From NCBI RefSeq assembly GCF_013044135.1, contig NZ_JABEPP010000004.1, positions 62,001-126,000 on the forward strand: 64,000 nt of DNA, in the 5' to 3' direction. Origin of the DNA: Enterovirga aerilata. GTDB lineage: Bacteria; Pseudomonadota; Alphaproteobacteria; Rhizobiales; Beijerinckiaceae. Position numbers and translations under genes: made by a program. The notes below the pieces were generated by a model. That model did no database searches and was not told the DNA's origin. It was given only the letters and a program-made list of their open reading frames with translations. Shown piece by piece: positions 13,433-30,364 of the stretch (position 1 is its first letter; each line of letters starts with the position of its first letter).

Positions 13433-14302
13433 TCAGAAGGCCTTCGGCAGGTTCAGCGCCTCGCCGATGGAGCTCACGGCGTTCTGCAGGTCGCGGCCGT
13501 TCGGCAGCTTCACGCCGAGGATCTCGACCCGGTCCTCCGGTGGAGGCGCGGGCGGCGCCGCGGTCTCGTCGGCAGGCGCCGCGACGGGCTGGACGGGCTG
13601 GCGCGTCGCGATCTGCGCCGGGCGAGCCGGCCTGTCCGGTCTCGTCTCGGGGGCACGGGCGGCCGCGCGCACGGGCGCCGGCGGCGGGAGCGGAGCCGCG
13701 GTCGCGGGCACGGAGGCCGTGGAGGCGGGCTCCGACCGCGGCTCCTCCCGGGCGACTGCCGCAGCCGGTGCGGACGGGGAGACCGCCGCGACCGCCGGAG
13801 GACGCGGCGCGGGCGCGGGCACGGCGGGAATCTCGGGCCGGGCGGCCAGGACGGGAGCCTGCGGCGCCGGCGGCATGAGCTGCGGAGCGGCCGACGTGAA
13901 CGTGGTCGGCAGCGGCGCCGTCGGCAGGCCGGCTGCCGGGATCACCGTCGCGGCGACCGGCTTCGGGCCCGTGGCGGCCGGCGCGGCTTGCTCCACCGGT
14001 GCGGGCCTGGTGCCGACGACCGCCGGCACGCCGTCGCGGATCTCCGGCATGTCGGGGAGGCGGCCGATGCGGATCTCGCTGCGGCGCGGCGCCTCGGGCT
14101 TGGGCAGGAAGGCGAGGCCGGACAGGCTGGACGGGAGATGGATACTGGAGACGATGGCGGCAGCTGCGCCCCCGAGGGCCGCGAGGCCGAGCGTAACGCC
14201 GCCCGCGACGAGAAGGGTCCTGCGGCTGCGGGCGGGCTGATCCGCCGCCGCGGCGCTCTGTGCTGGTCTGATGTCGGTCGGATCGATGGCGAGGTCCGCC
14301 AT
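13433..14302 (-). CDS. Pro/Ala-rich single-span membrane protein, unknown function
   Basis: This 289-residue protein is not recognised as a named family. It has a short acidic N-terminus, a basic RSRR stretch, one membrane span (TLLVAGGVTLGLAALGGAAAAIV, about residues 30-55), then a roughly 220-residue low-complexity region rich in Pro, Ala and Arg, and a short ordered C-terminal segment (VEILGVKLPNGRDLQNAVSSIGEALNLP). The architecture suggests a periplasm-spanning linker anchored in the inner membrane. I use the ATG at 14302 (MADLAIDPTDI) rather than 14338, because the upstream residues look non-coding. The high GC reflects the Pro/Ala bias. Function unknown. Confidence 0.6.
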   Translation of the reverse strand: MADLAIDPTDIRPAQSAAAADQPARSRRTLLVAGGVTLGLAALGGAAAAIVSSIHLPSSLSGLAFLPKPEAPRRSEIRIGRLPDMPEIRDGVPAVVGTRPAPVEQAAPAATGPKPVAATVIPAAGLPTAPLPTTFTSAAPQLMPPAPQAPVLAARPEIPAVPAPAPRPPAVAAVSPSAPAAAVAREEPRSEPASTASVPATAAPLPPPAPVRAAARAPETRPDRPARPAQIATRQPVQPVAAPADETAAPPAPPPEDRVEILGVKLPNGRDLQNAVSSIGEALNLPKAF

Positions 14303-14480
14303 GCAGCGATGTCTCCGGAAGGGGGCGAAGCTCCGCACCCGAGAACCATCAGTTCCACAAAGAATCGGGCGCGAACATGTCGAGCCCGAGACCGAGTTTA
14401 GAAGCGTTCACGTTACCAGAGCCTTGCCCGGGCGCAAGTCCGCCCGGAGCCATGGGCAAGCGCCGGACCGGACGTGACGG

Positions 14481-15757: not shown

Positions 15758-16915
15758 CTACTGCTTGGCGACGGCCGCGGCGGTAACGCCGGTCGAGACC
15801 GGGCCCGTGATGGTGCTGATGAGCGTCAGGAACTTCTGCAGCTCGACGCTGCTCGCGTTCGCGACGTAGAGCACGTCCTTGTCGCGCATCCTGAAGGTGC
15901 GGGCGAGGAAGTAGCTCTTCGGGTCGCGCAGGCTCAGCCGGTACACGACCGGGATCAGCCGCTCGCGGGCGTCGATGTCCCGCCCGGGCACGAGCTCGCG
16001 CACGACGGAGGGCGGCTCGAAGCGCAGCAGGAAGATGCCGTCCGGATCCGACCGGAAGTCGCTCAGCCCGCCCGCCTTGGCGATGGCTTCCTCGAGCGAA
16101 AGGCCGATCTTGCCAAAGGGCACGACCGTATTGGCCCCGATCGCCCCGAAGGTCGTGTAGGTCTGCGGCTCGCGCACGAGGGTGAGGATGTCGCCCGGCC
16201 GCATGAAGACGTTCTCCTGGGGGTTGGCCAGGATGTTCTCCAGCGGGACCGTGATAGTGCTGTTGCCGCGGGTGAGGCGCACGAAGGTCTCGTGGACGGT
16301 GCCGCGCACGCCGCCGGCCGTGCCGATCACGTCCATGATGCGGTCGCCGCGCGGCGAGAGCGGGATGCGGGCGCCGTTCGTCACCTCGCCCGTGACGGTG
16401 ACGCTGTTCGACAGGCTCCGGGTGACCGTCACGAGCGCCTGCGGCTCGATCGCCTTGCCGGCGAGGCCCGACAGGATCACCTGTTCGACCTCGGACGGCG
16501 TCTTGCCGACGACATTGATGCGGCCGGCATAGGGAACCGCGATGGTCCCGTCCTGCGTGACCATCTGGTCCGGGATGACGGCGCTGCGCGACCCCGCGCT
16601 GAATCGGTCCGTCACGGGCGCGGAGAACAGGCCGCCGGCCGCGGCTTCCCAGACCGTGACCCGCACCTCGTCGCCGATCCCGATGCGGATCTGCGGCGCC
16701 GGGCGGTAGTCGCCGAAGCGCGCGCGGAGAGATGGCCCCTGGTACTTCGACAGGATGGCGACCGTGCGGTCGTCGACATCCACCAGGACGTAGCGCTTCT
16801 CGATCTCGTTGTCGGCCAGCTTGACGACGTCATCGCTCAGCGGCCCGGTCGAAGGCAGGGCGGAACAGCCGGCCAGCGCCAGGGCGACCCCGAGCGTCGC
16901 GATCAAAACCCTCAC
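15758..16915 (-). CDS. Polysaccharide export lipoprotein (Wza/KpsD-like outer-membrane export family)
   Basis: This 385-residue protein has a lipoprotein signal ([17 protein letters not shown], lipidation at the LAGC cysteine). It then carries a Poly_export domain ([18 protein letters not shown] to [13 protein letters not shown]) followed by SLBB-type repeats ([38 protein letters not shown]). Such proteins form the outer-membrane channel for capsule or exopolysaccharide export. The GTG start at 16915 has GAGG ten bases upstream and gives an ideal signal; the longer frame to 17086 does not. It lies 223 bases downstream of the glycosyltransferase on the same strand, so it probably belongs to the capsule locus. 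Confidence 0.88.
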
Positions 16916-17138
16916 GCGTTCAAACCTCGTCTCGCGAATGGTGATAGCGGACCCCCGCGGGACCTTTGCCACCAAAAGCCGGCTGCGGAAAGCAGGCCCG
17001 GTTCCGGGGTGCGCATCGCGGCGGCCGTTGTCTCCGGTTTGACACACCCTGTCATCGCGGCGGATTGAAGCCGGCGCCTCAACCACTTCTTGACCATTTC
17101 AGCCCGGGCTTAACGGAATGCGAAACCCGCTCGCGCAG

Positions 17139-18407
17139 CTACAGCCGCGCGAGGACGTGGTTAACGATCCCGAAATGCGCATCCCAGGTCGGAGGCGCGT
17201 AGCCGTCGGGGGCCGTCCGGGCGGGACCGGCCGCGAGCTCCTCGATGGCCGCTTTCCAGCCGGGGCCGTCGAGCGGGTGCAGGTAGCGCGCGCGCTCGCC
17301 CGCGACCTCGCGGTGGACCGGGATGTCGGAGGCGAGGACGGGCGTGCCCATGCTGAGCGCCTCGGCGATCGGGATGCCGTAGCCCTCGGCGAAGGACGGC
17401 ATCAGCAGCGCACGCGCCCCCGCCACGAGCCGGGCCAGGCCGCCCGTCGAAAGCCCGCTTGCCTCGAAGACATGGCCGCGGAGCGCGGGACTGCGGTCGA
17501 GGAGGTCGACCGCAGCCTCGCTCTCCCAGCCGCGCCGGCCCACGATGACGAGGGCCGGGGTCTCCGCCCCGAGGCGCCAGGCGAGTTCGCGCCAGACCTG
17601 GAGCAGCAGCAGGTGGTTCTTGCGCGCCTCGATCGTGCTGCAGATCACGAAATAGGGCCGCCCGGCGGCGTCCTGCCGGGCGGTCCGGAGGAACACCTCC
17701 TCCACCCCGAGCGGCGCGACCGTGACGGGCGGGACCGGCACGCCCTCGTCCGCGCACCAGGCCGCGAACCGCGCGCCCACCGCCTCGGAATTGACGAGCG
17801 CCGCCGCGGCATGCCGCGCCACCGTCGCCATGCGCGTGCGGTGCCGAAGATCCTCGCCGGGAACCACATATTCGGGGAAGTCGATCGGGATCAGGTCGTG
17901 GATGAAGAACACGGCCCGGACGTCGGGGCGCTTCTCCAGCCAGGCGAAATGCTCCGGGCGGTCGAGCCGGAGATGGGAGGTGTGCAGGTAGATGGCGTCG
18001 CGCGGCGCCGCCTCGGCCGGACGCCAGCTCAGGCCGGCGAGCTTGATCGCCTGGTCGGCGATCTCGTGCTTCAGCCTCGGGAGCCTGCCTGCGGCGGCGC
18101 TCCGGGTCGGACCGGGAGCGGCCGGCTCGCCGCCGAGGCGGCGCCGCAGCTCCGCCAGAACCGGGTCGCGCTCGGCCGGCAGTTCCTCGCGCCACCTGTC
18201 CGCGATCGTGCGGACGAGATTGTCGCGCGTCCGATCGGGGAGGATGCGCGGGCCGAAATGGCCGATCCCCACCGCCAGCCGGTCCGGCGCGCCGGTCAGG
18301 AAGCAGCGCGCATAGGCGAGATCCACGCGGTCGATGCCGCTCGGGCTCGGATGTTTCAGGCGCGTGAGGAGCCGGGTCGCATCGACCAGGACGGGGCGCC
18401 CGCTCAT
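17139..18407 (-). CDS. GT4-family glycosyltransferase
   Basis: This 422-residue GT-B fold glycosyltransferase is predicted to be cytoplasmic or peripheral to the inner membrane, adding sugars to a surface polysaccharide. The nucleotide-sugar domain in the second half has ARKNHLLLLQVWREL, then the EX7E motif in PSFAEGYGIPIAEALSMGTPVLASD. The N-terminal half includes VDATRLLTRLKHPSPSGIDRVDLAYA, a motif seen in capsule/LPS GT4 enzymes. It starts at ATG 18407, overlapping the stop of the sulfatase-fold gene by 4 bases. Sugar donor and linkage cannot be read from sequence. Confidence 0.88.
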   Translation of the reverse strand: MSGRPVLVDATRLLTRLKHPSPSGIDRVDLAYARCFLTGAPDRLAVGIGHFGPRILPDRTRDNLVRTIADRWREELPAERDPVLAELRRRLGGEPAAPGPTRSAAAGRLPRLKHEIADQAIKLAGLSWRPAEAAPRDAIYLHTSHLRLDRPEHFAWLEKRPDVRAVFFIHDLIPIDFPEYVVPGEDLRHRTRMATVARHAAAALVNSEAVGARFAAWCADEGVPVPPVTVAPLGVEEVFLRTARQDAAGRPYFVICSTIEARKNHLLLLQVWRELAWRLGAETPALVIVGRRGWESEAAVDLLDRSPALRGHVFEASGLSTGGLARLVAGARALLMPSFAEGYGIPIAEALSMGTPVLASDIPVHREVAGERARYLHPLDGPGWKAAIEELAAGPARTAPDGYAPPTWDAHFGIVNHVLARL

Positions 18408-19903
18408 GCAGCCGCCCCCGTGCGGGCGGGCTCGGCCGAGGCGCAGAGCCGGGCGAGGAGCCGGCCGAGGCCGTCGGCCGTCATGGGGCGGGCCTCGCCG
18501 GGGCCGGCCGGCGGACCGCCGTCGAACAGGAGCACGGCGTAGTCCGTCTCCGCCTCGCGCGAGGGCTGCAGGCCGGGCAGGATCGGCGGGTGGTCGCCGA
18601 AGATGCAGAGCAGGGTGCGGGCGCGGCGGCGCGAGAGCCCCTCGATCAGGAGGCCGATCGCCGCGTCGGCATTGCGCAGGTGGCGGAGATACTGGCGGGT
18701 CGGGTCCGGCTCGTCCGCAAGCCGGCCGGCGCCCCAGGGCCCGTGGTTCTCCATGGTGATGGCCGTGATCAGCGTCCGCCCGGCGCCCTCGTCCGCCTCG
18801 GCGAGGATCGTCTCCACCATGGCTCGGTCGCTGACATAGGGGCCGAAGCGCTCGGCCGAGCCGAACCCCTCCTCGAAGACGAGGCGGTCGAAGCCGAGCC
18901 GCGGCACGACCTTGTGCCGCCCGAAGAAGCCGGCGCGGAAGGGATGGATGAACACGGTCCGGAAGCCGCGCTCCTTCAGGCGGTGGGCCAGGCTCACCGG
19001 CGCGGGCCCGCTGCGCGCGAGATAGGGGTCGAAGGCCCGGAAGCCGAGATCGGCGTCGGAGAGGCCGGTCAGCACCGCATGTTCCGTCCGCATCGTGAAG
19101 GCGCCGCAGGCCGGGACGCGCAGCGCTCCATGGAACAGCGCGCGCTCGCGGGCGCGAGCGAGGGCCGGAAGCGCGGCGTCGGACAGCCCGAACCGCACCG
19201 GGTCGAGGAAGGATTCGAACTGGATCACGATCACCAGGTCCGGATCGAGCGGCGCGGCGGCGCCCTCGGCCTCGCTCGGGACCGGGAAGGGCGCCGCGAT
19301 CTGGCCGCGCCAGCGCAGCGCATAGGCGGCCAGGGTCAGGAGAAGCCCCCACCGCCCGAGATGCCGCTCGGGATCGGGATGGGGCAGGAGGCGGGCGAGC
19401 CAACGCGCGACGGGGCCGCCGGATGCGGCGCGCCAGAGGAGCGCGATCCCGCCGATCACCGCCGCGACGGCGAACAGCGATCCGGCGGGCGACAGGACCG
19501 TGTAGGCCGGCTCCAGCCAGAGCCAGGCCGCGAGCGCGGCGAGGAACAGCGCGGCGGCGACGAGGAAGGGCGGCCGGAGCAGGAAGTCCGTATAGTAGAG
19601 GTCGGGATGGCGGACGATCATCTCGATCAGGCCGAAATCCGAGAAGGCGAGGGGCTCGCCCACGAGCTGGCGCTTGCGGATGCTGATCGCCGCGAGCACC
19701 GCGACCGTGACGAGACCGGCAAGGCCCGCGAGAAGCGGGCGGCCCCAGACGCCGAGCCAGAACAGATAGAGCGCGGCGAAGACGGCGAGCCTGGCCGGGA
19801 GGGAAGTGGCCGACGGGGCCGGCGCGCCCTTCAGGACGGCGAGACGCTCGACCGCGGCGCTTGCCGCGAAGGCGGCAAGGCAGGAGAGGACAGCGAGGAT
19901 CAT
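18404..19903 (-). CDS. LtaS/MdoB-like phosphoglycerol (or phosphoethanolamine) transferase
   Basis: This 499-residue protein has about five N-terminal membrane spans (to roughly residue 165), then a periplasmic sulfatase-fold domain. Catalytic signatures match LtaS: Glu230 in VIVIQFESF, the nucleophile Thr270 in a T-x-x-T-E motif (GAFTMRTEH), and Asp437-His438 in FGDHPP. Such enzymes transfer phosphoglycerol or phosphoethanolamine from phospholipid to a glycan or glucan. It is embedded between kpsC and a GT4 gene with 4-base overlaps on both sides, so the capsule polymer is its likely substrate; that is inference. An alternative is a periplasmic-glucan modifier. Confidence 0.85.
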   Translation of the reverse strand: MILAVLSCLAAFAASAAVERLAVLKGAPAPSATSLPARLAVFAALYLFWLGVWGRPLLAGLAGLVTVAVLAAISIRKRQLVGEPLAFSDFGLIEMIVRHPDLYYTDFLLRPPFLVAAALFLAALAAWLWLEPAYTVLSPAGSLFAVAAVIGGIALLWRAASGGPVARWLARLLPHPDPERHLGRWGLLLTLAAYALRWRGQIAAPFPVPSEAEGAAAPLDPDLVIVIQFESFLDPVRFGLSDAALPALARARERALFHGALRVPACGAFTMRTEHAVLTGLSDADLGFRAFDPYLARSGPAPVSLAHRLKERGFRTVFIHPFRAGFFGRHKVVPRLGFDRLVFEEGFGSAERFGPYVSDRAMVETILAEADEGAGRTLITAITMENHGPWGAGRLADEPDPTRQYLRHLRNADAAIGLLIEGLSRRRARTLLCIFGDHPPILPGLQPSREAETDYAVLLFDGGPPAGPGEARPMTADGLGRLLARLCASAEPARTGAAA

Positions 19904-21816
19904 TCGGGCCGGGCGGGGTTGCGCACGGCACCCTTCATCTGCCGCAGCAGCCTGCCGATCGGCGTCAGCAGCGCGTGCCTGGCCCTGACATAGGCGGCGC
20001 GCGCCGCGGCTCTCGCGGCCGGCTTATGCTGCGCGGCATCCCGCGCCTCCGCGAGGCGCCGCACGAGCACCTCGGGCGGGCAGCGCTGCCCGGTCGCGGG
20101 GTCCACGTAGCGCGGATAGAGAATGAGCGCGCCGGCCACGAGCTCGTCGAGGGCGAGCCGTCGCGTCCGGCGCGGCGGCGGGTCGAGATCCTCGGTCAGG
20201 CCCCATCCGGCATAGAAGGGCCGGCCGTGCACCACCGTCCGGCGCCCGCGCAGCAGGGCCTCGAAACCGGCGAGCGACGTCATGGTCTCGACCGCGTCGA
20301 CCCGGTCCAGCAGGTCGACGATGGCGACGTCGCGAACCACCCGGTCGGCGAACTCCGCCATCTGCGCCGGCGAGAGCCGGCCCCGCCGGAGCCCTGCCTC
20401 GACGTCCGGATGCGGCTTGAAGACGATGAAGGCGCCGGGATTCCTGGCGCGCGCCGCCCTGAGCAGGGCGAGGTTCCCCGGCGTGCGCGGCGATCCGAGC
20501 AGCACGGAGGCGTCATCCTCGACCTGCCCCGGCACGAGCACGACCTGCCCTCCGGCGGGGAAGTCGTCCAGGCTCGCATGGCGGCCGACATTGTACTTGC
20601 TCAGCCGGAGCGCCACGACTTCGCGCCGCAGCGCCGCAGCGCGCGCGAGGACGTCCGGCCCGAACTCGGCCGTGGCGAGGATGTGCTCGAGATCGCTCTC
20701 CCGGCGCGGGTCGTAATAGATGCCGCGGGAATCGAGCACGCAGGAGGCGCCCGGCAGGAAGGCCGCCCCGAGCCCGACCGAGCGCAGGAAGCCGTCCTCC
20801 ATGCGGAGCAGGGGCAGGCCGGCCTCCGCGGCGGCGGCTTCGAGCCGGGCCGGCATCCGGGTCTCCCAGGCGACGATCCGGCCGCCGGCGGCCACGGCAC
20901 GCCGCACGGCGGCGCGGTCGGACCGGACCTTCACGGCCGGCCCGTCCGGGCCGTCCAGGAACCGCGCCACCTGGCCCGCCTTCCAGCGCGAGACGCCGAC
21001 GCAATAGGAGCGGCGATCGTTCTCGCGGAACCGGTCGCGCTGCCAAGCGAGCTGGTCCGCCGCGGTGAGGAAGTCGGTCTCGCGCCGGGTCCAAGCGTCG
21101 AGATAGACCGGCTCGTCGAGGAAGTGGCGGGCGAAGACGGCTTCCGCCGTCCCGCCGTCGGAGAGACCGTCCAGCTCCCGCCCGGCAAGCCGGGCGAGGA
21201 CGGCGAGCTCGCCACCCGGCGGGGCGTAGACGCGGCGGGCGGCATCGAGCAGCGCCCATGGGCTCACGCCAGCTACGGCGAGAGCGCCCGCATGGGCCCG
21301 CGCCACCGTGGCCGCGAGGGCGGCGGGCCGGCGCGCATCGGCCATGACGGCGAGGCGCGACCCCGGATTGTCGAGGGCCGCGCGGCGAAGGAGGGCGCGG
21401 TCCCTCGCCGATCCGGCCCCGACGAGGACGAGGCCGCGCCCGGCCGGATCGAAGGGCAGCCGGTCGCGGCCGTCGTTCCGCCAGGACAGCCGAAGCCGCC
21501 GCAGAGCGGCCAAGCCTTCGGCCGGCCCGACGCGAGAGACCCGCGGCGGACGGCCCGCGACGACGAGGCTGAGAGGAGGCGAATCGGGTCGGGGCCGGAC
21601 CGAGCGGAGCGGGCCGGTGCTCACCGGACGGAACGGCACGCGGGCAAGCGTGGCGAAGCGCCGCGCGAGCATACCCGTGCCGCCCGCCCAGCCGAGCACG
21701 CCGTCCAGCCTGCCGATCGCGGCCGGCGCCCAGACGATCTCGCAGCCGAGAAGGCCGGAGATGTCGTCCCGCAGCGCCCATAGATCGCGGGACAGGATGC
21801 CGAGCCGCTCATTCAT
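19900..21816 (-). CDS. kpsC: Capsule polysaccharide beta-Kdo transferase KpsC
   Basis: This 638-residue cytoplasmic glycosyltransferase adds the poly-Kdo linker that anchors group 2-type capsules to phospholipid. It contains two tandem related domains. The second carries CVGVSRWKAGQVARFL, MEDGFLRSVGLGA, LDSRGIYYDPRRESDLE and a VVLVPGQVEDDASV stretch, and it ends with VHGRPFYAGWGLTEDLD, all diagnostic of KpsC. Residues toward the N-terminus (SLAGFEALLRGRRTVV lies in the C-terminal half) show that the first domain is more divergent. The start is taken at MNERLG (21816), not 21879. It overlaps the LtaS-like gene by 4 bases. KpsS lies divergently upstream. Confidence 0.92.
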   Translation of the reverse strand: MNERLGILSRDLWALRDDISGLLGCEIVWAPAAIGRLDGVLGWAGGTGMLARRFATLARVPFRPVSTGPLRSVRPRPDSPPLSLVVAGRPPRVSRVGPAEGLAALRRLRLSWRNDGRDRLPFDPAGRGLVLVGAGSARDRALLRRAALDNPGSRLAVMADARRPAALAATVARAHAGALAVAGVSPWALLDAARRVYAPPGGELAVLARLAGRELDGLSDGGTAEAVFARHFLDEPVYLDAWTRRETDFLTAADQLAWQRDRFRENDRRSYCVGVSRWKAGQVARFLDGPDGPAVKVRSDRAAVRRAVAAGGRIVAWETRMPARLEAAAAEAGLPLLRMEDGFLRSVGLGAAFLPGASCVLDSRGIYYDPRRESDLEHILATAEFGPDVLARAAALRREVVALRLSKYNVGRHASLDDFPAGGQVVLVPGQVEDDASVLLGSPRTPGNLALLRAARARNPGAFIVFKPHPDVEAGLRRGRLSPAQMAEFADRVVRDVAIVDLLDRVDAVETMTSLAGFEALLRGRRTVVHGRPFYAGWGLTEDLDPPPRRTRRLALDELVAGALILYPRYVDPATGQRCPPEVLVRRLAEARDAAQHKPAARAAARAAYVRARHALLTPIGRLLRQMKGAVRNPARPE

Positions 21817-22005
21817 CAGAGGTCGTTGCGGAAAAGCCCGGCCGCGCGAAAAACCTGGACAACGCGAGCGTCTTTCCACATGGTCCGTCAGTTCCGGGGT
21901 GCTTAGCCGTGGCGCCCCCTGTTGGAAACATCAAAGTCTGCCCGTTATGGTCCGATCGGAAGCTCCGGGACCGAGGCACGGGCAAAACGGACCTGTCCAT
22001 TGAGC

Positions 22006-23313
22006 GTGGTTGAACCTGCACCTGCGAAGGCGGCGTCGCCGCGGACGTTCCTCTTCCTCCAGGGCCTGGCGTCTCCGTTCTTCGCCGAGCTGGGTCGGGC
22101 GCTCATCGCGCGGGGCCACCGCGTCCGCCGCATCAATATCTCGCTGGGCGACGAGATCTTCTGGCGGCTGCCGGCGACGAACTACCGCGGCAGCCTCGCG
22201 AACTGGCGCGGCTTCCTGGCGAGCTATCTGGCGAGCGAGACGGTCACGGACATCGTGCTGTTCGGCGATTGCCGGCCCTACCATCGGGTCGCGATCAGCC
22301 TCGCGGCGCATCGGCGCATCCAGGTCCATGTCTGCGAGGAAGGCTATATCCGGCCGAACTGGATCACGATCGAGCGCGGCGGCGTGAACGGCTATTCCTC
22401 CCTGCCCCGCGACCCGGCGACGGTGCGGGCGCTCGCGGCCGAGCTGCCGGATCCGGTCGAGGTGCCCTTCGCGAGCAACTTCGCCCGCCGGGCCCTCTGG
22501 GACGTGACCTACAACTTCGCCAACATGGCCGGCCGGCCCGTCTATATGGGCTACCGCCGGCACCGGCCGAACCACGTCCTGGTGGAGTATGCCGGCTGGC
22601 TCAAACGGCTGACGCGGCGCCGGCGCACCGTGACGCATGCCGAAGCGGAGTCCGCCAGGGCCCTCGCCCATCCGGGCGGGTTCTATCTCGTGCCGCTCCA
22701 GCTCGACAGCGACTACCAGATCAGGGTCCACTCGCAATACGCGGTCCTCGCCGAGTTCCTGGACGAGGTCTTCGGCTCCTTCGCGAAGCATGCGCCGCCC
22801 GAGCCCGAGCTCCTGGTCAAGGTGCATCCGCTCGACAACGGGCTGATCAACCGGCCGCGCCAGGTCGCCGAGCTTGCCGAGAAGCACGGCATCGCGCACC
22901 GGGTGCGCTGCATCGAGGGCGGCCATCTTCCGACGCTCCTCGAGAAGACCCTCGGGGTGGTGGTCGTGAACTCGACCGTCGGGCTCACGGCCATCGAGGT
23001 CGGCCGCCCTACCGTGGCCCTCGGGACCTCCATCTACGACATTCCCGGCCTCGCCTTTCAGGACGGGCTCGACCGGTTCTGGACCGAGCTGACGCCGCCC
23101 GACCGCGACCTCTTCTGGGCGTTCCGCAAGCTCGTCATCCACCGCACGCAGGTGAATGGCGGCTTCTTCTGCAAGACGGGCGTCGGGCTCGCGGTGAGGA
23201 ACGCGGTCGAGAGGCTCGAGGCCGAAAAGCCCTATTGGCATTTCGCGCCCGTGGAGCAGGCGGCCGAGCTGCCGGACGCCGATATCTACGGCCGGCCGCT
23301 CCCGGCCGAATGA
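22006..23313 (+). CDS. kpsS: Capsule polysaccharide beta-Kdo transferase KpsS
   Basis: This protein of about 435 residues is the partner of KpsC, adding the first Kdo to lyso-phosphatidylglycerol for capsule anchoring. Diagnostic motifs are RTFLFLQGLASPFFAELGRAL at the N-terminus, ISLGDEIFW, VHVCEEGYIRPNWITIERGGVN in the middle, and the C-terminal LEKTLGVVVVNSTVGLTAIEVGRPTVALG, which resembles the KpsC nucleotide-binding half. The frame is open to a TTG at 21922; I prefer GTG at 22006 (TTG at 22000 also possible), because the family begins just before RTFLFLQG. None has a strong ribosome-binding site. The SDR gene starts inside its stop codon. Confidence 0.88.
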   Translation: MVEPAPAKAASPRTFLFLQGLASPFFAELGRALIARGHRVRRINISLGDEIFWRLPATNYRGSLANWRGFLASYLASETVTDIVLFGDCRPYHRVAISLAAHRRIQVHVCEEGYIRPNWITIERGGVNGYSSLPRDPATVRALAAELPDPVEVPFASNFARRALWDVTYNFANMAGRPVYMGYRRHRPNHVLVEYAGWLKRLTRRRRTVTHAEAESARALAHPGGFYLVPLQLDSDYQIRVHSQYAVLAEFLDEVFGSFAKHAPPEPELLVKVHPLDNGLINRPRQVAELAEKHGIAHRVRCIEGGHLPTLLEKTLGVVVVNSTVGLTAIEVGRPTVALGTSIYDIPGLAFQDGLDRFWTELTPPDRDLFWAFRKLVIHRTQVNGGFFCKTGVGLAVRNAVERLEAEKPYWHFAPVEQAAELPDADIYGRPLPAE

Positions 23314-24071
23314 GGCCGCGCAGCGTCCTCATCACGGGCGCCTCGCGCGGGATCGGAGCGGCGCTCGCCAGGGCCTATGCCGCGCCAGGTGTCACGCTTG
23401 GGCTGCTGGCGCGGGACGAAACGGCGCTGCAGGCGGCGGCGGAGACATGCCGCAGGGCCGGCGCGGCGGCCGTGCCGATTCCCGCCGACATCCGCGACCG
23501 GAACGGAATGCGCGAGCGGCTCCTTGCCTTCGACGCCGAGCATCCGGTCGACCTCGCCATCGCCAATGCGGGCATGCAGCTCCCGACCGGCGACGACGCC
23601 GCGACGGAACGGGCGACCTATGGCGAGATCGAGGTCAATCTCCTCGGTGCTCTCAACAGCGTCCTCCCCCTGATCCCGCCCATGCGGGCGCGGGGCGCGG
23701 GGCAGATCGCCTTCGTCAGCTCGCTCGCCGGCCTGGCGCCGCTCCCCGATTCCCCGGGCTACAGCGCGTCAAAGGCGGCGCTCATCGCCTACGGGCTGGC
23801 GACCCGGGAGCGCCTGCGGGAGGCGGGCATCAAGGTCAGCATCGCCTGCCCGGGCTATGTCGTGACCGACATGGGTGACCGTTATAAGGGCTGGCGGCCG
23901 CTCTCGATGTCGGCCGAGAGGGCCGCCGAGCATATCCTCCGGGGTCTCGAGCGCGACCGGCCGATCATCGCCTTTCCGCGCTCGCTCGCCCTCCTGGCCA
24001 GGCTCTCGATGCTGGTGCCCGAGCCGGTGCGGCGACCCTTCATGGGCGGCTTCCGCTTCACCTACGAATAG
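23310..24071 (+). CDS. SDR-family NAD(P)-dependent oxidoreductase
   Basis: This is a 253-residue classical short-chain dehydrogenase. The cofactor motif TGASRGIG starts at residue 9, ANAG is in ADLAIANAGM context, the catalytic serine is in VSSLAGL, and YSASK carries Tyr and Lys. The family resembles capsule-locus SDRs of the KpsX/RkpJ kind found next to kpsS in rhizobia. The ATG overlaps the kpsS stop codon by 3 bases, so the two are coupled and probably act together in capsule biosynthesis. The C-terminal hydrophobic segment (SLALLARLSMLVPEPVRRP) could contact the membrane. It converges with tamB, 6 bases away. Confidence 0.85.
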   Translation: MRPRSVLITGASRGIGAALARAYAAPGVTLGLLARDETALQAAAETCRRAGAAAVPIPADIRDRNGMRERLLAFDAEHPVDLAIANAGMQLPTGDDAATERATYGEIEVNLLGALNSVLPLIPPMRARGAGQIAFVSSLAGLAPLPDSPGYSASKAALIAYGLATRERLREAGIKVSIACPGYVVTDMGDRYKGWRPLSMSAERAAEHILRGLERDRPIIAFPRSLALLARLSMLVPEPVRRPFMGGFRFTYE

Positions 24072-24077
24072 GCCGGC

Positions 24078-27000
24078 TCACCACTCGTAATCGCCCCCGA
24101 TCCCGACCGAGGTCGCGCCGTTCGCGCCGACCTCGCCCTTGAGCTTCAGCTCGTTGGTGACCCGGAAATCGATGCCGAGCCCCGTACCCGACGCGCCCGC
24201 GCCGGCCCGGACCCCGACCGAGAGACGGTCGTTCAGGGCGCGGTTGAGCCCGAGCCCCGGCCCGCCCGCGGCTCCGAGATTGACGTCGAGCCCCTGGAGG
24301 CCGAGATCGCGCCGCAGGCTCTCGAACGGGTCGTCGCCGCCGGCGGAAAACTGCGCCGCAGCCTGCGCGAGCGCGAGGGCCTGCGCCGTCGTGAGCTGCC
24401 CCGAGGGCGAATTGAAGAGAAGGCGGGACAGGATCTCGTCCCGCGGCAGGTCGGGATTCGACCGGAACTCGAAGGCGGGCTCGGAGGCCGGGCCCGTGAT
24501 CGCGATCTCGATCGTCGCGCCGCCCGCGCTCGTCTGGGCCAGGAAGTCGAGCTCCGGCGTGAGCTCGCCCGAAAAGGTGAGCCGCCCGCGCGCGAAGTCG
24601 AGCCGCGCGGAGACGACCTGGAGGCGGCCGCTGCGCAGCTCGAAGGCCCCGACCGGGTTCGGCCTGGCCAGCGTGCCGGTGAGCCGCAATTCGCCGCCGA
24701 GCTCGGCGATGAGGCCGCGCCCATGCACGAAGATGCGGCCCGGCGCCGCGATCGCGAGATCAAGCGTGGCGTCGAAAGGAGGCGCTGCGCGCCCGCCCTT
24801 CCGGTTGCGCGCGTCCAGCGCAAGCCGCGCCCGCGCGGTGCGGGTCGGATTGACATGCCGCGTCCCCGGAAGCGGGCCCAGGGTCGCGGGCAGGCGCTCG
24901 GGGATGGCGACGTCCAGGGTCAGGACCTCGACCCGGCCGGAGACACGCGGATCCCGCACGAGCGGGCCCGATATCTGGACCGCAAGGTTCGCGACGAGCG
25001 TCGCGACGCCGCTGCGCACGAGTTCCGCACGCCGTCCCTCGACCCTGATCTGCCCGGGGAAGCCGGCGCCGGGATCGATGCGCACGCGGCCGGAGGCCGA
25101 GATCGCGCCCTCGTTCCGGGTCGTGGCGGAAGCCGACTCGATCACGATCTCCTCGCCGCGCGCGACGATGCGGGCGCGGAGATTGTCGAGCCGAGTGCCC
25201 TGGAGCGCGTCCGTGAAGGAGCCGCCGGAGAGCGTCGCGGTCCCGCTGGCCTGGGGCGCCGCGGGCGTCCCGCCGACGCGCGCATCCACCTCGACGCGCC
25301 CGGCGAGGCGCCGGCCGGCCGCGGCCAGGAGCCCGGCCGTGGCGGCGCCGGCGTCGATCCCGCCGCGGATCGTGAGATCGAGGGCGCCCGCGCCGACCGG
25401 GACCGAGCCTCCGACCCGGATCTGGCCGGCGCGGCCGGCCGCGAGCGTCGCGTCGATCGTCGCGCGCTCGCCGTTCAGCCGGCCCGACGCCGCGATATCG
25501 GCCGGGGGCAGGCCGAGATCGCGCGTCTGGGCCAGGACGAGCCGCGAGATGCGGGCCTGGTACTCGCCCGTCGGGGCGCTCGGCGAGCCCGCGATGCTCG
25601 CCTGCCCTTCGAGCGTGCCGGAGAGCCCGAGTCCGGGCGCGAAGATCTCGGCGGCCGAGAGCGGGACCGCCCGGGCGACCGCGCGCAGGGCCAGCCGCGG
25701 ACCGGCGGTGCCGTCGACCGTGAGCCGGCCTGCCCCGAGCGCGACCGCAAGGCCGCGGATCTCGACGGTCCCGTCCGCGAGCGTGAAGGTCGCGGGCTGC
25801 GCGATGGCGATGCGGTCGCGCCCGCGGCTCGCGCCGAACTGGGTCAGCTCGACGCGGATGCGCTCGGCCGGTACGACGCGCGCCCGCGCATCCAGATCGA
25901 AGCCGCGCGCCGTGGCCGTAAGGATCACGTCGCTCGCCTGCGGGGTGCCGCGGGCGTTGAAGCGGATGCGCGAGATCCGCTCGCCCGCGACGAGGAGCTC
26001 GTCGACCGCGGCATCGCCCGAGATCACGGGCCGGCGGTAGAGATCGGTCGCGCTCACATCCGCGGTGACGCGGTCGAGCTGCGCACCATAGGCCGCGAGG
26101 CGGCTGCCGTCGGCCTTCACGGCCGCGTTCTGGCCGCCCTCGGCCAGGTCGAGCGCGATCTCCGCGTTCAGCGCACCCGACGCGCGGGTGAGGAGGAGCG
26201 GCGAGATATCGTCGAGATTGCCGGCCGCGACGTTCAGCTTGCCGCTCGCGAGCCAGTCCGGCTGGAGGGTCACGCCCCCCGTGACCGCGACGGATCCGAT
26301 CGCGAGGTCGACATCGTCGGCCGTGATCTGGCCGTCCGGCGTGCGGGCGAGATGGAGGCCGCCGCGGGCCGGCTTGCGGTCGACCTCGCCGTCGAGCGCG
26401 AGCCTCACGTCGGGCGAGCGCACGAGGTCGCGGCCCGTCAGGTCGACCACGAGACGGGGCACCGGCCGCCCGAGCGCCGTTCCGTCCGTCACGGCGATCC
26501 GCAGCGTCGCATCGGGACTGGCGAGCGGGCCGGTGAGCTGCCCCGTGATCGAACCCCGGCCGGAGACGCGGGAATCGGCCCGGCGCAGGTCCGGCACGGT
26601 CACGGCGAGCGTCATGTTGGACGCGTCCGGCGCAGCGGTTCCGTCGAGGCGGATATTGGCGTTCCGGCCCGTGACGCGCATCTCCTGGAAGCCGAACCCG
26701 CCCTCCGGCGTGAGCCGGACCGTGCCGGCCGCATCGAGCCGGCCGCCCAGGAGACCGTCGGCCGGCTCGATTCCGGTGTCGAGACGGCTCGCATGCGCAT
26801 CGATCACGGCGTTGTAGCGATTGGCGCGCGGCGTTCCCTCCACGTCCGCCTTCAGCGTCGCGGCGCCGCGCAGACCCGGCAGGCCGGCAAGGGCCGCGAA
26901 GCGCGACAGGTCGGCGGCGCCCGCTTCGAGCTGGCCGCGCAGTTCGCCCGAGCCGAGCCGGCCGGCATAGCGGGCGGACAGCGTCGGGGTGCGGAGCTCG

Positions 27001-28370
27001 AGACGCTCCACGTCGATGCGGCTCTCGGCCGCCGAGACGCCCTTCAGGGACAGCGTGAGCTCCGTCCCGACCGCGCGGGCGAGGGCCGGGTCGGCCGCCG
27101 CGAGGCCAGTCGCGCGTGCATCCGCCGTGAGTTCGATCCGGGTCCCGGCGCTCGTCACGGTTCCGGACGGGACGGCCGCGAAGCTGGCGTCGAGCCGGGC
27201 GAGGCGCCCGGCGGGCAGCTGCGCATCCTCGGCATTCAGCGTCGCGTCGATCCGGGGCGAGGTGATCGGCCCGGTCACCCGCCCATCGAAGGCGAGGCGG
27301 CGGATTTCCGCCCCGGACACGGCGGTCCGCTGCGCGGCATTCGGCAGGTTCGCGGCCGTGATGCGGAGGTCCGCCACCTGGTCGGGGTTCATCCCACCCG
27401 CGATGTCGAGGCGCGCGGCGGCCGCCGCGAGGGTGATGCCCGGGATCGTGACCGCGCCGTCGTCGCCGTAGGTGGCCGTGCCGGTGAGACGGGTCGTGCC
27501 GGCGAAGACCGGGGCGGCGATCTCCGGCAGAAGCCCTGCGATCTCAGCCGTCATGTCGAGGGCGAGCCGGCGAGCCGGCCCGTCCCGGCCCAGCGTCGCG
27601 CCGCCGCGCGCCCCGATGCCCTGGCCCGCGTCGAAGGTCAGCCGCGACTGGAAGGCGTCCAGCGTGCCGTCGCCGTCGAGGTCGAGCCGGACCGGTGGCA
27701 GGCCGGGGATGTTGATCGCCCGCGCGAGCAGCCCGCCGGCGGGTTCGTCGAGGTCGAGCGCGAGCGTCAGGCGCTCGCCCTGCGGCACGAGGCCGAGCCG
27801 GGCCGTGAACTGCCCCCCCGCGTCCAGCCGGCGGGCCTCGAAGCGGAGATCGAGGCCTTCGGAGGGGTTGCCGAGCCGAGCCGCCCCGGTCGCCGCAAGG
27901 CGGGCCGCGGTGCCGAAGATCGGCTCGCCCAGCCGGAGCTCGGCGAGCGCGAAGTCCTTGATCTCGACGCGGACCGGCAGTTCCGGCAGGAGCGGCTGGT
28001 CCTCCCCCTCGACGGGGATCTCGGCCGGAAGCGGCCGTCGGGCGACATCGAGAATGCCCACCTCCAGCCGATCGATCTCGAGACGGCGGGAAAGCAGGGC
28101 GAGCCGCCGCCAGACGATCCGCGCCCGGTCGAGACGGAGCCAGACGCCGTCCCGGTCCGAGATCTGGATGTCGCGGATCGTGGCGTCGGACGAGAGCGCG
28201 CCCTCGATGGTCCCGATGGAGACGCGGGTGGTCGGCGTGGAGAGCGCGCGCGAGATCAGGCTCGCCAGGATACCCTTCTCCTCGTCGGCCGCCCGCCCGG
28301 CCAGGGTCAGGCCGCCGAGCGCAGCCAGAGCGAGGCAGAGAAGCGCGAGGAAGGTTCGACGGAAGCGCAT
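24078..28370 (-). CDS. tamB: Translocation and assembly module protein TamB
   Basis: This 1430-residue protein, the largest gene here, has an N-terminal inner-membrane anchor (RTFLALLCLALAALGGLTLAG) and a very long periplasmic region of repetitive beta strands. It ends in the DUF490 domain: GELTPELDFLAQTSAGGATIEIAITGPASEPAFEF, then RDEILSRLLFNSPSGQLTTAQALALA. The C-terminus GIDFRVTNELKLKGEVGANGATSVGIGGDYEW forms the terminal barrel-like segment. With TamA it bridges the envelope for outer-membrane protein assembly or phospholipid transport. It overlaps the tamA stop by one base, so the two are coupled. The high repeat content explains the large antisense frames on the other strand. Confidence 0.95.
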   Translation of the reverse strand: MRFRRTFLALLCLALAALGGLTLAGRAADEEKGILASLISRALSTPTTRVSIGTIEGALSSDATIRDIQISDRDGVWLRLDRARIVWRRLALLSRRLEIDRLEVGILDVARRPLPAEIPVEGEDQPLLPELPVRVEIKDFALAELRLGEPIFGTAARLAATGAARLGNPSEGLDLRFEARRLDAGGQFTARLGLVPQGERLTLALDLDEPAGGLLARAINIPGLPPVRLDLDGDGTLDAFQSRLTFDAGQGIGARGGATLGRDGPARRLALDMTAEIAGLLPEIAAPVFAGTTRLTGTATYGDDGAVTIPGITLAAAAARLDIAGGMNPDQVADLRITAANLPNAAQRTAVSGAEIRRLAFDGRVTGPITSPRIDATLNAEDAQLPAGRLARLDASFAAVPSGTVTSAGTRIELTADARATGLAAADPALARAVGTELTLSLKGVSAAESRIDVERLELRTPTLSARYAGRLGSGELRGQLEAGAADLSRFAALAGLPGLRGAATLKADVEGTPRANRYNAVIDAHASRLDTGIEPADGLLGGRLDAAGTVRLTPEGGFGFQEMRVTGRNANIRLDGTAAPDASNMTLAVTVPDLRRADSRVSGRGSITGQLTGPLASPDATLRIAVTDGTALGRPVPRLVVDLTGRDLVRSPDVRLALDGEVDRKPARGGLHLARTPDGQITADDVDLAIGSVAVTGGVTLQPDWLASGKLNVAAGNLDDISPLLLTRASGALNAEIALDLAEGGQNAAVKADGSRLAAYGAQLDRVTADVSATDLYRRPVISGDAAVDELLVAGERISRIRFNARGTPQASDVILTATARGFDLDARARVVPAERIRVELTQFGASRGRDRIAIAQPATFTLADGTVEIRGLAVALGAGRLTVDGTAGPRLALRAVARAVPLSAAEIFAPGLGLSGTLEGQASIAGSPSAPTGEYQARISRLVLAQTRDLGLPPADIAASGRLNGERATIDATLAAGRAGQIRVGGSVPVGAGALDLTIRGGIDAGAATAGLLAAAGRRLAGRVEVDARVGGTPAAPQASGTATLSGGSFTDALQGTRLDNLRARIVARGEEIVIESASATTRNEGAISASGRVRIDPGAGFPGQIRVEGRRAELVRSGVATLVANLAVQISGPLVRDPRVSGRVEVLTLDVAIPERLPATLGPLPGTRHVNPTRTARARLALDARNRKGGRAAPPFDATLDLAIAAPGRIFVHGRGLIAELGGELRLTGTLARPNPVGAFELRSGRLQVVSARLDFARGRLTFSGELTPELDFLAQTSAGGATIEIAITGPASEPAFEFRSNPDLPRDEILSRLLFNSPSGQLTTAQALALAQAAAQFSAGGDDPFESLRRDLGLQGLDVNLGAAGGPGLGLNRALNDRLSVGVRAGAGASGTGLGIDFRVTNELKLKGEVGANGATSVGIGGDYEW

Positions 28371-30364
28371 CAGAAGGCCTGCCCGATGCTGACGTAAAGC
28401 ACCGCCTCCTTGTCGCCCCTGCGCGGATTGAGCGGGAAGGCGACGTCGAGGCGGACGGGCCCGATGGCCGTCACGTAGAAGACGCCGAGGCCCGCGGACA
28501 TGCGGGTATCGCCGAAGAAGTCCGGGAACTGGGACGCATAGGCCCCACCCGCGTCGAAGAATGGCACGATGCCGATCGCGTCCGTCACCCTGATGCGCGC
28601 CTCGACGGAGCTGTCGAACATGGAGCGGCCGCCGACCGTGAACCCAAACGGCCCGAACGGGCTCACGCTCTGGAAACGGTAGCCGCGGATGGAGCCGGCG
28701 CCGCCCGCATAGAAGCGGTAATTCGACGGGATGAGCTGGATCTGGTTCGGCTCGTCCAGGAAGCCGCCGATGCGGCCGCGGGCCGCGAGCACGAAGCGTC
28801 CCTCCTCGTCGAAGGAGTAATAGGCGGATGCCGAGGCGGTCGCCTGGGTGAAGGCCACGGAGGAGCCCATGAAGGCCGGGTACGGCGTCACGGCCGCCGA
28901 GACCCGATAGCCGCGCGTCGGGTCGAGCGGCTTGTCCGTGTTGTCGAACTGCATCGTCAGCGGAAGGCCGATGAGCGTGTAGTCGACATTCGAGATCACG
29001 TCGCTGGTGCGGCCGCGCTCGCCCTTGATGCCGAAGGTGGCCGAGAGCGTCTCGTCGATCCGGTAGCGGGCGGCGGCCGTCGCACCGCCGAGACGGACCG
29101 TGTAGCCGCCGAAACGGCCGCCGCCGGTGCGGTTGCGCTCCACGAGCCCGTCGAGGAGGAAATCGAAGCGAGATCCTTCGATGGCGGGCTTCAGGAAGCT
29201 GAAGGTGAACCGGGCGCCGAGATCCGAGAGCCGCCAGTCGCCGATATCCTTGATGCGGGTGCCGTTGTTGCGCGGGGCCAGGAACATGTCCCCCTGCAGC
29301 CTGAGCCGCTCCGCCCCGCCGAACAGGTTCCGGTTCTCGTAATAGACCCGCCCGCTCGGCCCATCGATGGTGGAATAGCCGAGCGCGTAGCCGGCGGCGT
29401 TGAGCGCCCGGTCCGTGACCTCGACGAAGATCGGCAGGTTGCCGTTGCGGTCCAGCCTGTCGCCCTCGCGGATGCGCACGGAGCCGGCAGCCGGGATGGA
29501 CGCGATCGACTTCCTGGTGGAGTCGAGCCGGTCCGGCGAATAGGGCTCGCCCTCCTCCAGATAGATGAAGGAGCGCACGATCTCCTGGTCGAATCCCTGT
29601 GGTCCGCGCAGCGCGACCTCGCCGATTCCGGCGGACGGGCCGGGATCCACCAGGAAGGTGACGTCCATCGTGTCTGCCGCGTGGTCGACCACGGGGGCGG
29701 GCGGCGGCGACTTGACGAGGGGGTGCGACCTCCGGCGGAAATGGTCGACCAGCCTCGCGCTCGCGGCGCGGATGCGGGCCGCCTCGGCGGGATCGCCTGG
29801 CCCGAGCCGCATGACGTGGGGAGGAAGCTCCTCCGGCGAGAAGGGCTGTCGCGTCCGCTGGTCCAGCACCTGGATGTTGCGCATCCGGAAAAGCGGACCC
29901 GTCTCGACGATGATCTTCACGGGCACGCGGGCGCGGCTGCGGAGCGCGTTCGCGGCCCGGACGGCTTCCGGGTTCTGGAACTGCCCGATCCGGACCGGCA
30001 CTCCGGCTATCTCGATCGTCGGCGTCGCGTCGTAGTAGCCGGCGCCCCAGAGCGCATCGACGAGGGGTGCGAAATCGGCCACGGCGCGCTGGAGCAGCGT
30101 CTCCCCGTCGGGGGGCGCATCCTGCCGCAGGCGGTAGAGGTTTGACGCATCCCGAAGCCGGCTCTCGACATCCTCGTCGCCGCGGATCTCGAAGCTGAGC
30201 TCGTAGGGCAGCGCGGCGACCGAGGGCGCGGGCGGATCCTCCGACCCGAACAGGCCGAAGAAGTCAAAGGCCGAGGCCGGACCGGCGAGGCCCGCTCCGC
30301 CCAAACTCGCGATCACGAGGCCCGCGGCGATCCTCCGCCGCCAGGGCCGACGCCCGAAACTCAT
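28370..30364 (-). CDS. tamA: Autotransporter assembly complex outer-membrane protein TamA
   Basis: This 664-residue Omp85-family barrel has a signal peptide ending near GLAGPASAFDF and three POTRA domains in the first 300 residues (for example VPVKIIVETGPLFRMRNIQV and YSPDRLDSTRKSIASIPAAGSVRI). A 16-strand BamA-type barrel follows. The conserved loop motif appears as GGAGSIRGYRFQSV, corresponding to the VRGF/Y motif of Omp85 proteins. The C-terminus ends in a barrel strand with terminal Phe (AVLYVSIGQAF). It precedes tamB with a one-base overlap. Confidence 0.95.
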   Translation of the reverse strand: MSFGRRPWRRRIAAGLVIASLGGAGLAGPASAFDFFGLFGSEDPPAPSVAALPYELSFEIRGDEDVESRLRDASNLYRLRQDAPPDGETLLQRAVADFAPLVDALWGAGYYDATPTIEIAGVPVRIGQFQNPEAVRAANALRSRARVPVKIIVETGPLFRMRNIQVLDQRTRQPFSPEELPPHVMRLGPGDPAEAARIRAASARLVDHFRRRSHPLVKSPPPAPVVDHAADTMDVTFLVDPGPSAGIGEVALRGPQGFDQEIVRSFIYLEEGEPYSPDRLDSTRKSIASIPAAGSVRIREGDRLDRNGNLPIFVEVTDRALNAAGYALGYSTIDGPSGRVYYENRNLFGGAERLRLQGDMFLAPRNNGTRIKDIGDWRLSDLGARFTFSFLKPAIEGSRFDFLLDGLVERNRTGGGRFGGYTVRLGGATAAARYRIDETLSATFGIKGERGRTSDVISNVDYTLIGLPLTMQFDNTDKPLDPTRGYRVSAAVTPYPAFMGSSVAFTQATASASAYYSFDEEGRFVLAARGRIGGFLDEPNQIQLIPSNYRFYAGGAGSIRGYRFQSVSPFGPFGFTVGGRSMFDSSVEARIRVTDAIGIVPFFDAGGAYASQFPDFFGDTRMSAGLGVFYVTAIGPVRLDVAFPLNPRRGDKEAVLYVSIGQAF

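Follow-up and report, generated by a model that had tools for sequence, protein, structure and literature searches.

Capsule genes of the window and of contig C7

The window analyzed here, a 64-kb stretch of the Enterovirga aerilata genome (contig NZ_JABEPP010000004.1, positions 62,001 to 126,000), carries a capsule locus in which a gene for a protein resembling the lipoteichoic acid (LTA) synthase LtaS stands among the capsule genes kpsC and kpsS (Table 1). On the minus strand, kpsC and the LtaS-like gene share four bases (19900-19903), as do the LtaS-like gene and the gene of a GT4 glycosyltransferase (18404-18407), and the gene of an outer-membrane polysaccharide export (OPX) lipoprotein lies downstream of the GT4 gene after a gap. 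Divergent from kpsC are kpsS and a short-chain dehydrogenase/reductase (SDR) gene, which also overlap by four bases. This layout, described in the original prediction, was confirmed from the open reading frames (ORFs) and from Pfam and NCBIfam matches. The same prediction held that the combination was not a standard one, which was not borne out, as it equals the RkpH-RkpI-RkpJ part of the rkp-1 region and corresponds to wcbPQ in wcb. The gene combination is already known from rkp-1 and from the wcb capsule-lipid loci of Burkholderiales and Cobetia, and is not new. Since the same arrangement occurs in other genera and families, the layout is not due to chance; the locus is real and conserved, and known in kind (rkp-1/wcb).

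The locus shares with Sinorhizobium rkp-1 (rkpA-rkpG-rkpH-rkpI-rkpJ) the fatty acid synthase/polyketide synthase (FAS/PKS), the enzyme of the 8-amino-7-oxononanoate synthase (AONS) class, the SDR, the LtaS-like RkpI and the KpsS-like RkpJ. It differs in that the genes are split over contigs, that KpsC and the OPX lipoprotein belong to the RkpI operon and that a GT4 gene is added. The genes rkpGHIJ were reportedly published as capsule genes in 1997. In Caballeronia insecticola an SDR, an LTA-synthase-family protein, a type I PKS, a deacetylase and an AONS-class enzyme are encoded consecutively, an order that we take to be that of wcbPQRST; KpsS was not listed in the 19 kb examined there. Cobetia likewise has wcbPQRT beside kpsSC, according to the available portion of the source (PMC11766843). 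Compared with the wcb genes of both groups, the window differs in gene order and has no adjacent PKS. KpsS, the C-terminal module of KpsC and a KpsMTE-type exporter are shared with the group 2 capsule system of Escherichia coli, from which the present one is set apart by a degenerate KpsC N-terminal module and by the addition of the LtaS-like enzyme and the RkpA/RkpG/RkpH lipid genes.

No kpsM, kpsT or kpsE gene was called within the window, as the original prediction had stated, and its expectation that export components lie elsewhere was upheld. Between 2.5 and 14.5 kb, contig C7 encodes KpsT, KpsM, two KpsE-like proteins and a GT2 protein of two domains; the KpsE-like genes differ in strand and stand on either side of a GT2 gene and KpsT (L012:2469-10279). 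KpsM, KpsT, KpsE, OPX and KpsS, the components looked for as marks of an ABC-transporter-dependent (group 2 type) capsule, are all present in the genome, KpsE by resemblance only. The first two rkp-1 genes are likewise found outside the window, as an RkpA-like gene (~2400 aa) and an RkpG-like gene (61% to that of locus L065) at ~332-341 kb of contig C7, the best NCBIfam models for RkpG being BioF and a serine-palmitoyltransferase-like one, both under cut-off. This RkpG gene is followed by one gene resembling, by eye, nucleotide-sugar dehydrogenases and another resembling sugar aminotransferases (L220:7938-11820). The capsule parts are directly observed to exist in the genome but are spread over contigs. 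A 4.6-kb contig of a lichen metagenome-assembled genome (L142) encodes the partial relative with the highest listed identity to the LtaS-like protein (64%), adjoining a homologue (52%) of the two-domain GT2 gene of C7 (6-3849), a pairing which ties the C5 and C7 capsule parts together.

Table 1. Positions and supporting matches of the capsule genes (window coordinates unless a contig is named; TM, transmembrane; GroP, glycerol-phosphate)
Feature	Position	Strand	Evidence
OPX/Wza-KpsD class outer-membrane polysaccharide export lipoprotein	15758-17086	-	Poly_export and SLBB Pfam matches
GT4 glycosyltransferase	17139-18407	-	PF00534/PF13692
RkpI/WcbQ-type LtaS-like protein, 499 aa	18404-19903	-	PF00884, 93.7 bits
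LtaS-like protein, catalytic domain (residues 216-490)	18434-19258	-	E230, T270, D437, H438; GroP-site H320, R329, H387
LtaS-like protein, membrane part (residues 1-162), ~5 TM helices	19418-19903	-	AlphaFold helices, hydropathy
KpsC, 638 aa from ATG	19900-21816 (21879 from GTG)	-	PF05159
KpsC C-terminal module, QVEDD nucleophile motif	20044-20988	-	most like PDB KpsC chain 6mgd
Degenerate KpsC N-terminal module	21007-21816	-	no QxxxD, no EDGFLR; alpha/beta fold in model
KpsS (RkpJ-type), predicted first beta-Kdo transferase	~22006-23313, start uncertain	+	PF05159, 278.6 bits
SDR oxidoreductase, RkpH/WcbP counterpart	23310-24071	+	PF00106
KpsE-like	contig C7 2469-3554	-	by resemblance; no Pfam family matched
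KpsT	contig C7 8305-8958	+	ABC_tran
Second KpsE-like	contig C7 9017-10279	+	by resemblance; no Pfam family matched
KpsM	contig C7 ~13702-14451	+	ABC-2

Enzyme class and family of the LtaS-like protein

In a profile search against solved structures the LtaS-like protein matched GacH (6.8e-21), LtaP (2.1e-14) and LtaS (7.9e-8), and its AlphaFold model (pLDDT 81.7) resembled in fold GacH (Z 28.6), LtaP (25.0), LtaS (24.5), a Vibrio protein (23.6), BcsG (21.2) and sulfatases (~20). The complete catalytic set that had been predicted, Glu230, Thr270 and Asp437-His438, was found in place and is invariant in 59/59 RkpI-type rows, the window's included. H320, R329 and H387, equally invariant in these rows, align with His-353, Arg-362 and His-422 of Listeria LtaS, where they form the first glycerol-phosphate site (GroP1) together with Trp-360 (PMC4192460). 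The catalytic Thr, the metal ligands and the GroP1 His, Arg and His are shared with LtaP and LtaS; the GroP1 Trp is not. GacH of Streptococcus pyogenes, with GroP donor-site residues that could be aligned, is the best match in both sequence and fold; it reportedly acts on a streptococcal rhamnose polysaccharide, a difference from a capsule locus. A second GroP site of Listeria LtaS (Ser-486, Asn-488, His-489) has been tied to chain growth and is missing from primase-type enzymes (PMC4192460). In contrast to LtaS, the RkpI type lacks it: Ser occupies the Ser-486 position in 0/59 rows, and the residues at the Asn-488 and His-489 positions vary (12 rows have the His of the latter), so that a single transfer would be expected rather than polymer growth. 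Ten LtaS-like paralogues keep the equivalents of all seven catalytic and GroP1 residues as well, which therefore mark the class and not the RkpI subfamily. Family, fold and site residues are direct observations. In agreement with the class originally proposed, they point to a phosphoglycerol transferase, belonging here to a KpsC/KpsS capsule locus and more likely of the single-transfer than of the polymerising kind, as judged from alignments and a structural model.

Strong LtaS-like hits (E<1e-100) numbered 24, in 23 genomes of a sample of 247 Rhizobiaceae, of which 20 loci were fetched and four others checked by position. All 20 fetched loci contain the rkp-1 set (RkpA, RkpG, SDR, LtaS-like protein and KpsS), with the SDR on the opposite side in L198 and L199, and the window protein shares 30-32% identity with Rhizobiaceae RkpI. 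The rkpI primers for S. fredii HH103 (from PMC9952627) fall in the Rhizobiaceae LtaS-like gene, where the forward primer fits loci L204, L205 and L209 with 0 mismatches and the reverse primer, ~95 bp from it, differs at 2-4 bases. An S. meliloti record has the same gene order as the Rhizobiaceae loci. The gene set, the primer matches and the S. meliloti order together identify the LtaS-like protein as RkpI-like. Several plasmid records name RkpI/WcbQ-type proteins as members of the LTA synthase family, and RkpI is annotated as an 'export transmembrane protein' in the available part of PMC9952627.

In a tree of 69 proteins, which included no named wcbQ protein, the 59 RkpI-type rows and the 10 paralogues lie across a branch with support 100/99; the window's row has a long branch and its placement inside the RkpI group is unsure. 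One Rhizobiaceae paralogue of 642 aa (L067:9513-11441) stands, by eye, between apparent ribosomal/dnaB genes and fab genes and is perhaps a periplasmic-glucan enzyme. When 297 genomes of the order were searched with the LtaS-like protein (E<=1e-10), 29 gave a match, of which 19 were full-length (E<1e-60) and 10 weaker, mostly to longer proteins (open frames of 570-660 aa); the genomes with weaker matches had no listed PF05159 match. A contig scan gave 309 relatives, and the best 80, termed the named loci, are mostly from Methylobacterium/Methylorubrum, so that close relatives weigh heavily in their counts: KpsS was present in 77, the SDR in 77, KpsC in 76 and either KpsS or KpsC in 78, both remaining loci (L142 and L160) being ended by contig edges. 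The three loci in which KpsS and the SDR were missed are L142, L160 and L171. Sphingomonas sp. QA11 (L175) unites KpsT, KpsM, KpsE, KpsS, an RkpI-like protein, an SDR, a GT4 protein and KpsC within 13.5 kb. A conserved ORF of ~284 aa was seen beside the SDR in Methylobacterium loci (L049:4071-4925, L050:4669-5523).

Linkage to KpsS and the one-module KpsC

A KpsS gene (PF05159) lies 327-2557 bp from the full-length LtaS-like gene in 19/19 genomes of the order sample, and KpsS stands beside the LtaS-like gene for 24/24 strong Rhizobiaceae hits, a linkage that is directly observed. A search for KpsC together with the LtaS-like enzyme in other genomes, suggested with the original prediction, showed KpsC in 76 of the named loci, and no KpsC was seen in six RkpI-bearing genomes (G148, G250, G299, G445, G365 and G507), where the single PF05159 match is KpsS. 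We thus rejected KpsC as the steady partner of RkpI, a place that belongs to KpsS with L171 as the exception seen.

To count KpsS copies, a PF05159 match was taken as a KpsS-grade hit from 180 bits upwards, a threshold chosen to separate KpsS from KpsC. Two such hits were found in 0/19 genomes with RkpI and in 29/57 without it in the order sample (Fisher p 2e-5, relatedness not corrected). In Rhizobiaceae they were found in one of the 23 RkpI-bearing genomes, G519, which has 9% contamination and carries one by each of two RkpI copies. Fifteen loci from genomes without RkpI showed several cases of two KpsS-like genes, the others having KpsS with a GT4 gene or KpsS alone. For RkpG (threshold of at least 450 bits), the comparison set was formed by the 61 stronger of 81 PF05159-positive genomes without RkpI; RkpG was present in 44 of these 61 and in 18/19 genomes with RkpI (Fisher p 0.057), and is only a weak marker of RkpI genomes. 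As RkpG is common in genomes without RkpI, the lipid genes go with KpsS and not specifically with RkpI, and RkpI would seem to be a variable step within a broader KpsS-lipid pathway.

The KpsC of the window has a single QxxxD motif (QVEDD), in its C-terminal module, which scored 216.6 bits against PDB chain 6mgd and 157.7 bits against 6mgb; the QxxxD in each module that marks a dual-module KpsC was not found. These loci supplied 95 KpsC rows, 88 of them distinct; the C-module motif is present in 95/95 and a second KpsC-type motif is missing in 93/95, in a count that disregards chance Q-x-x-x-D elsewhere and in which many ORF starts are uncertain; the two-module exceptions are L059 and L171. 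In a 17-row alignment the N-terminal part of the window and Methylobacterium proteins resembles a decayed module that lacks both EDGFLR and QxxxD, and that of Hansschlegelia and Sphingomonas is even shorter; the part in the window protein is still an alpha/beta domain in the predicted model. Three genomes that have RkpI (G373, G450 and G509) also encode, elsewhere in the genome, proteins in which PF05159 matches occur in two sets. As far as the source is available, the Asp of QxxxD is the nucleophile of KpsC and the C-module is the (2->7) enzyme (PMC10148158). A one-module KpsC would predict a beta-(2-7) polymer of 3-deoxy-D-manno-oct-2-ulosonic acid (Kdo), which is the capsule polysaccharide (KPS) given for S. 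meliloti in the accessible text of PMC5539429, and offers a testable account of that polymer. The details that are new here are KpsS as the partner, the one-motif KpsC, and RkpI and a second KpsS-like enzyme not being found together.

Role of the LtaS-like enzyme and neighboring genes

Sequence comparison and modelling make it fairly probable that this is a split capsule locus of rkp-1/wcb type whose LtaS-like enzyme moves one glycerol-phosphate from phosphatidylglycerol (PG) to the capsule glycolipid, phosphoglycerol transfer to this glycolipid being its likely act. KpsS would place the first beta-Kdo onto a phospholipid, KpsC, with its C-terminal module alone active, would add (2->7)-linked Kdo, and assembly and export of the polymer would fall to the KpsMTE set of contig C7 with the OPX lipoprotein. 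Held by its inner-membrane anchor with the catalytic domain in the periplasm, the LtaS-like enzyme would take sn-glycerol-1-phosphate from PG via T270 and pass one unit on. We infer the donor, the single transfer, the periplasmic side and, as acceptor, a capsule molecule (polymer or Kdo/lipid end). The capsule reported for Cobetia marina in 2025, ->4)-alpha-L-Rhap2S-(1->3)-beta-D-Manp6PGro-(1->, with probably non-stoichiometric phosphorylation, is a precedent for the phosphate-substituted capsule suggested by the original prediction and supports this reading; in the portion of the report available, its genes comprise kpsETMD, kpsSC and wcbPQRT, WcbQ is annotated as an LTA synthase and a streptococcal glycerol-phosphate paper is cited for its activity (PMC11766843).

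Several points weigh against glycerol-phosphate transfer to the capsule. The S. meliloti KPS is given as a plain Kdo polymer without phosphoglycerol in the accessible text of PMC5539429, and polymer decoration may therefore not be the general role of RkpI. The Aquibaculum locus L171 has RkpI and a two-module KpsC with no KpsS in 17 kb, and 57 genomes have a KpsS-grade hit without RkpI, so that KpsS capsules do not generally require the enzyme. Of the 59 RkpI-type rows, 55 have Phe and 4 have Tyr at the Trp-360 position of GroP1, a further difference from LtaS. In the literature examined, partly available as excerpts, no activity measurement was found for any RkpI/WcbQ protein; no paper linking RkpI with phosphoglycerol or LtaS was found among the literature matches listed, and a literature search found none with KpsC, KpsS and 'phosphoglycerol transferase' together.

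A different role, which we think rather unlikely, is that RkpI cuts capsule-Kdo-glycerol-phosphate from diacylglycerol and passes it to the RkpA/RkpG/RkpH lipid, re-anchoring or releasing the capsule. It accords with KpsS making Kdo-PG, a lipid with the head group on which LtaS-type enzymes act, and with KpsS as the steady partner even in the six genomes where it is the sole PF05159 match. The SDR in 77/80 named and 20/20 Rhizobiaceae loci, RkpG in 18/19 RkpI genomes and papers that, in the parts available, describe rkpA-J as a pathway for a lipid carrier or anchor also agree with it. Against this, RkpG is found in 44/61 genomes without RkpI, LtaS uses plain PG, and no anchor structure with a non-glycerol lipid was found in the literature examined. 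Still less probable appears RkpI/WcbQ as an anchor transferase that would take capsule-Kdo-PG, the KpsS product, as donor and pass capsule-Kdo-glycerol-phosphate to a sphingoid-like RkpA/RkpG/RkpH lipid, with a second KpsS-like enzyme doing the same step otherwise in other loci, hence the two not being found together.

It seems improbable that the enzyme transfers phosphoethanolamine, as EptA and BcsG do, or is only a hydrolase or regulator. The superfamily is the same, and EptC, EptA, MCR and BcsG (Z 21.2) appear lower in the Foldseek list; yet Z is 28.6/25.0/24.5 for GacH/LtaP/LtaS against 21 and below, and the GroP-site His, Arg and His are kept. No EptA or MCR was among the 15 profile-search sequences at E<=1, which is not proof against phosphoethanolamine. 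We give very little credence to a main role in placing phosphoglycerol on osmoregulated periplasmic glucans, the capsule-locus place being secondary: the genome has three OpgG/MdoG homologues and a single LtaS-like match (E<=1e-10), so that a distinct enzyme of the class for glucans is not seen, but the KpsS linkage (19/19 and 24/24) argues otherwise, and the Rhizobiaceae paralogue of ~650 aa, in its separate clade (100/99) and without a PF05159 hit inside 10 kb in any of 23 genomes compared by eye, would at a guess be the better glucan candidate. PF06165 (GH94) had no match in the E. aerilata genome.

The partially available literature examined assigns no activity to the product of the capsule gene rkpI in nodule bacteria. 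Recognizing it as a KpsS-tied phosphoglycerol transferase of the GacH/LtaP class makes possible a direct test of what decorates, caps or re-anchors these capsules.

The start of the OPX lipoprotein, which has a lipobox (LAGC, identified by eye), is uncertain: 17086 is that of the longest ORF and the gene caller's 16906 is probably nearer the true one. The protein matches the VexA model weakly (83 bits, cut-off 456), and homologues are present in 38/80 named loci, many of them incomplete. The window KpsS scores 261.5 bits with the NCBIfam KpsS model, under the cut-off of 600. GT4 homologues adjoin KpsC in three Sphingomonas loci and in no others of the 80 named loci, and adjoin KpsS in loci L229 and L230. 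The KpsS/SDR genes are adjoined by tamB and tamA (24078-30364), and a TamB match also lies by the OPX-KpsS loci L223 and L227.

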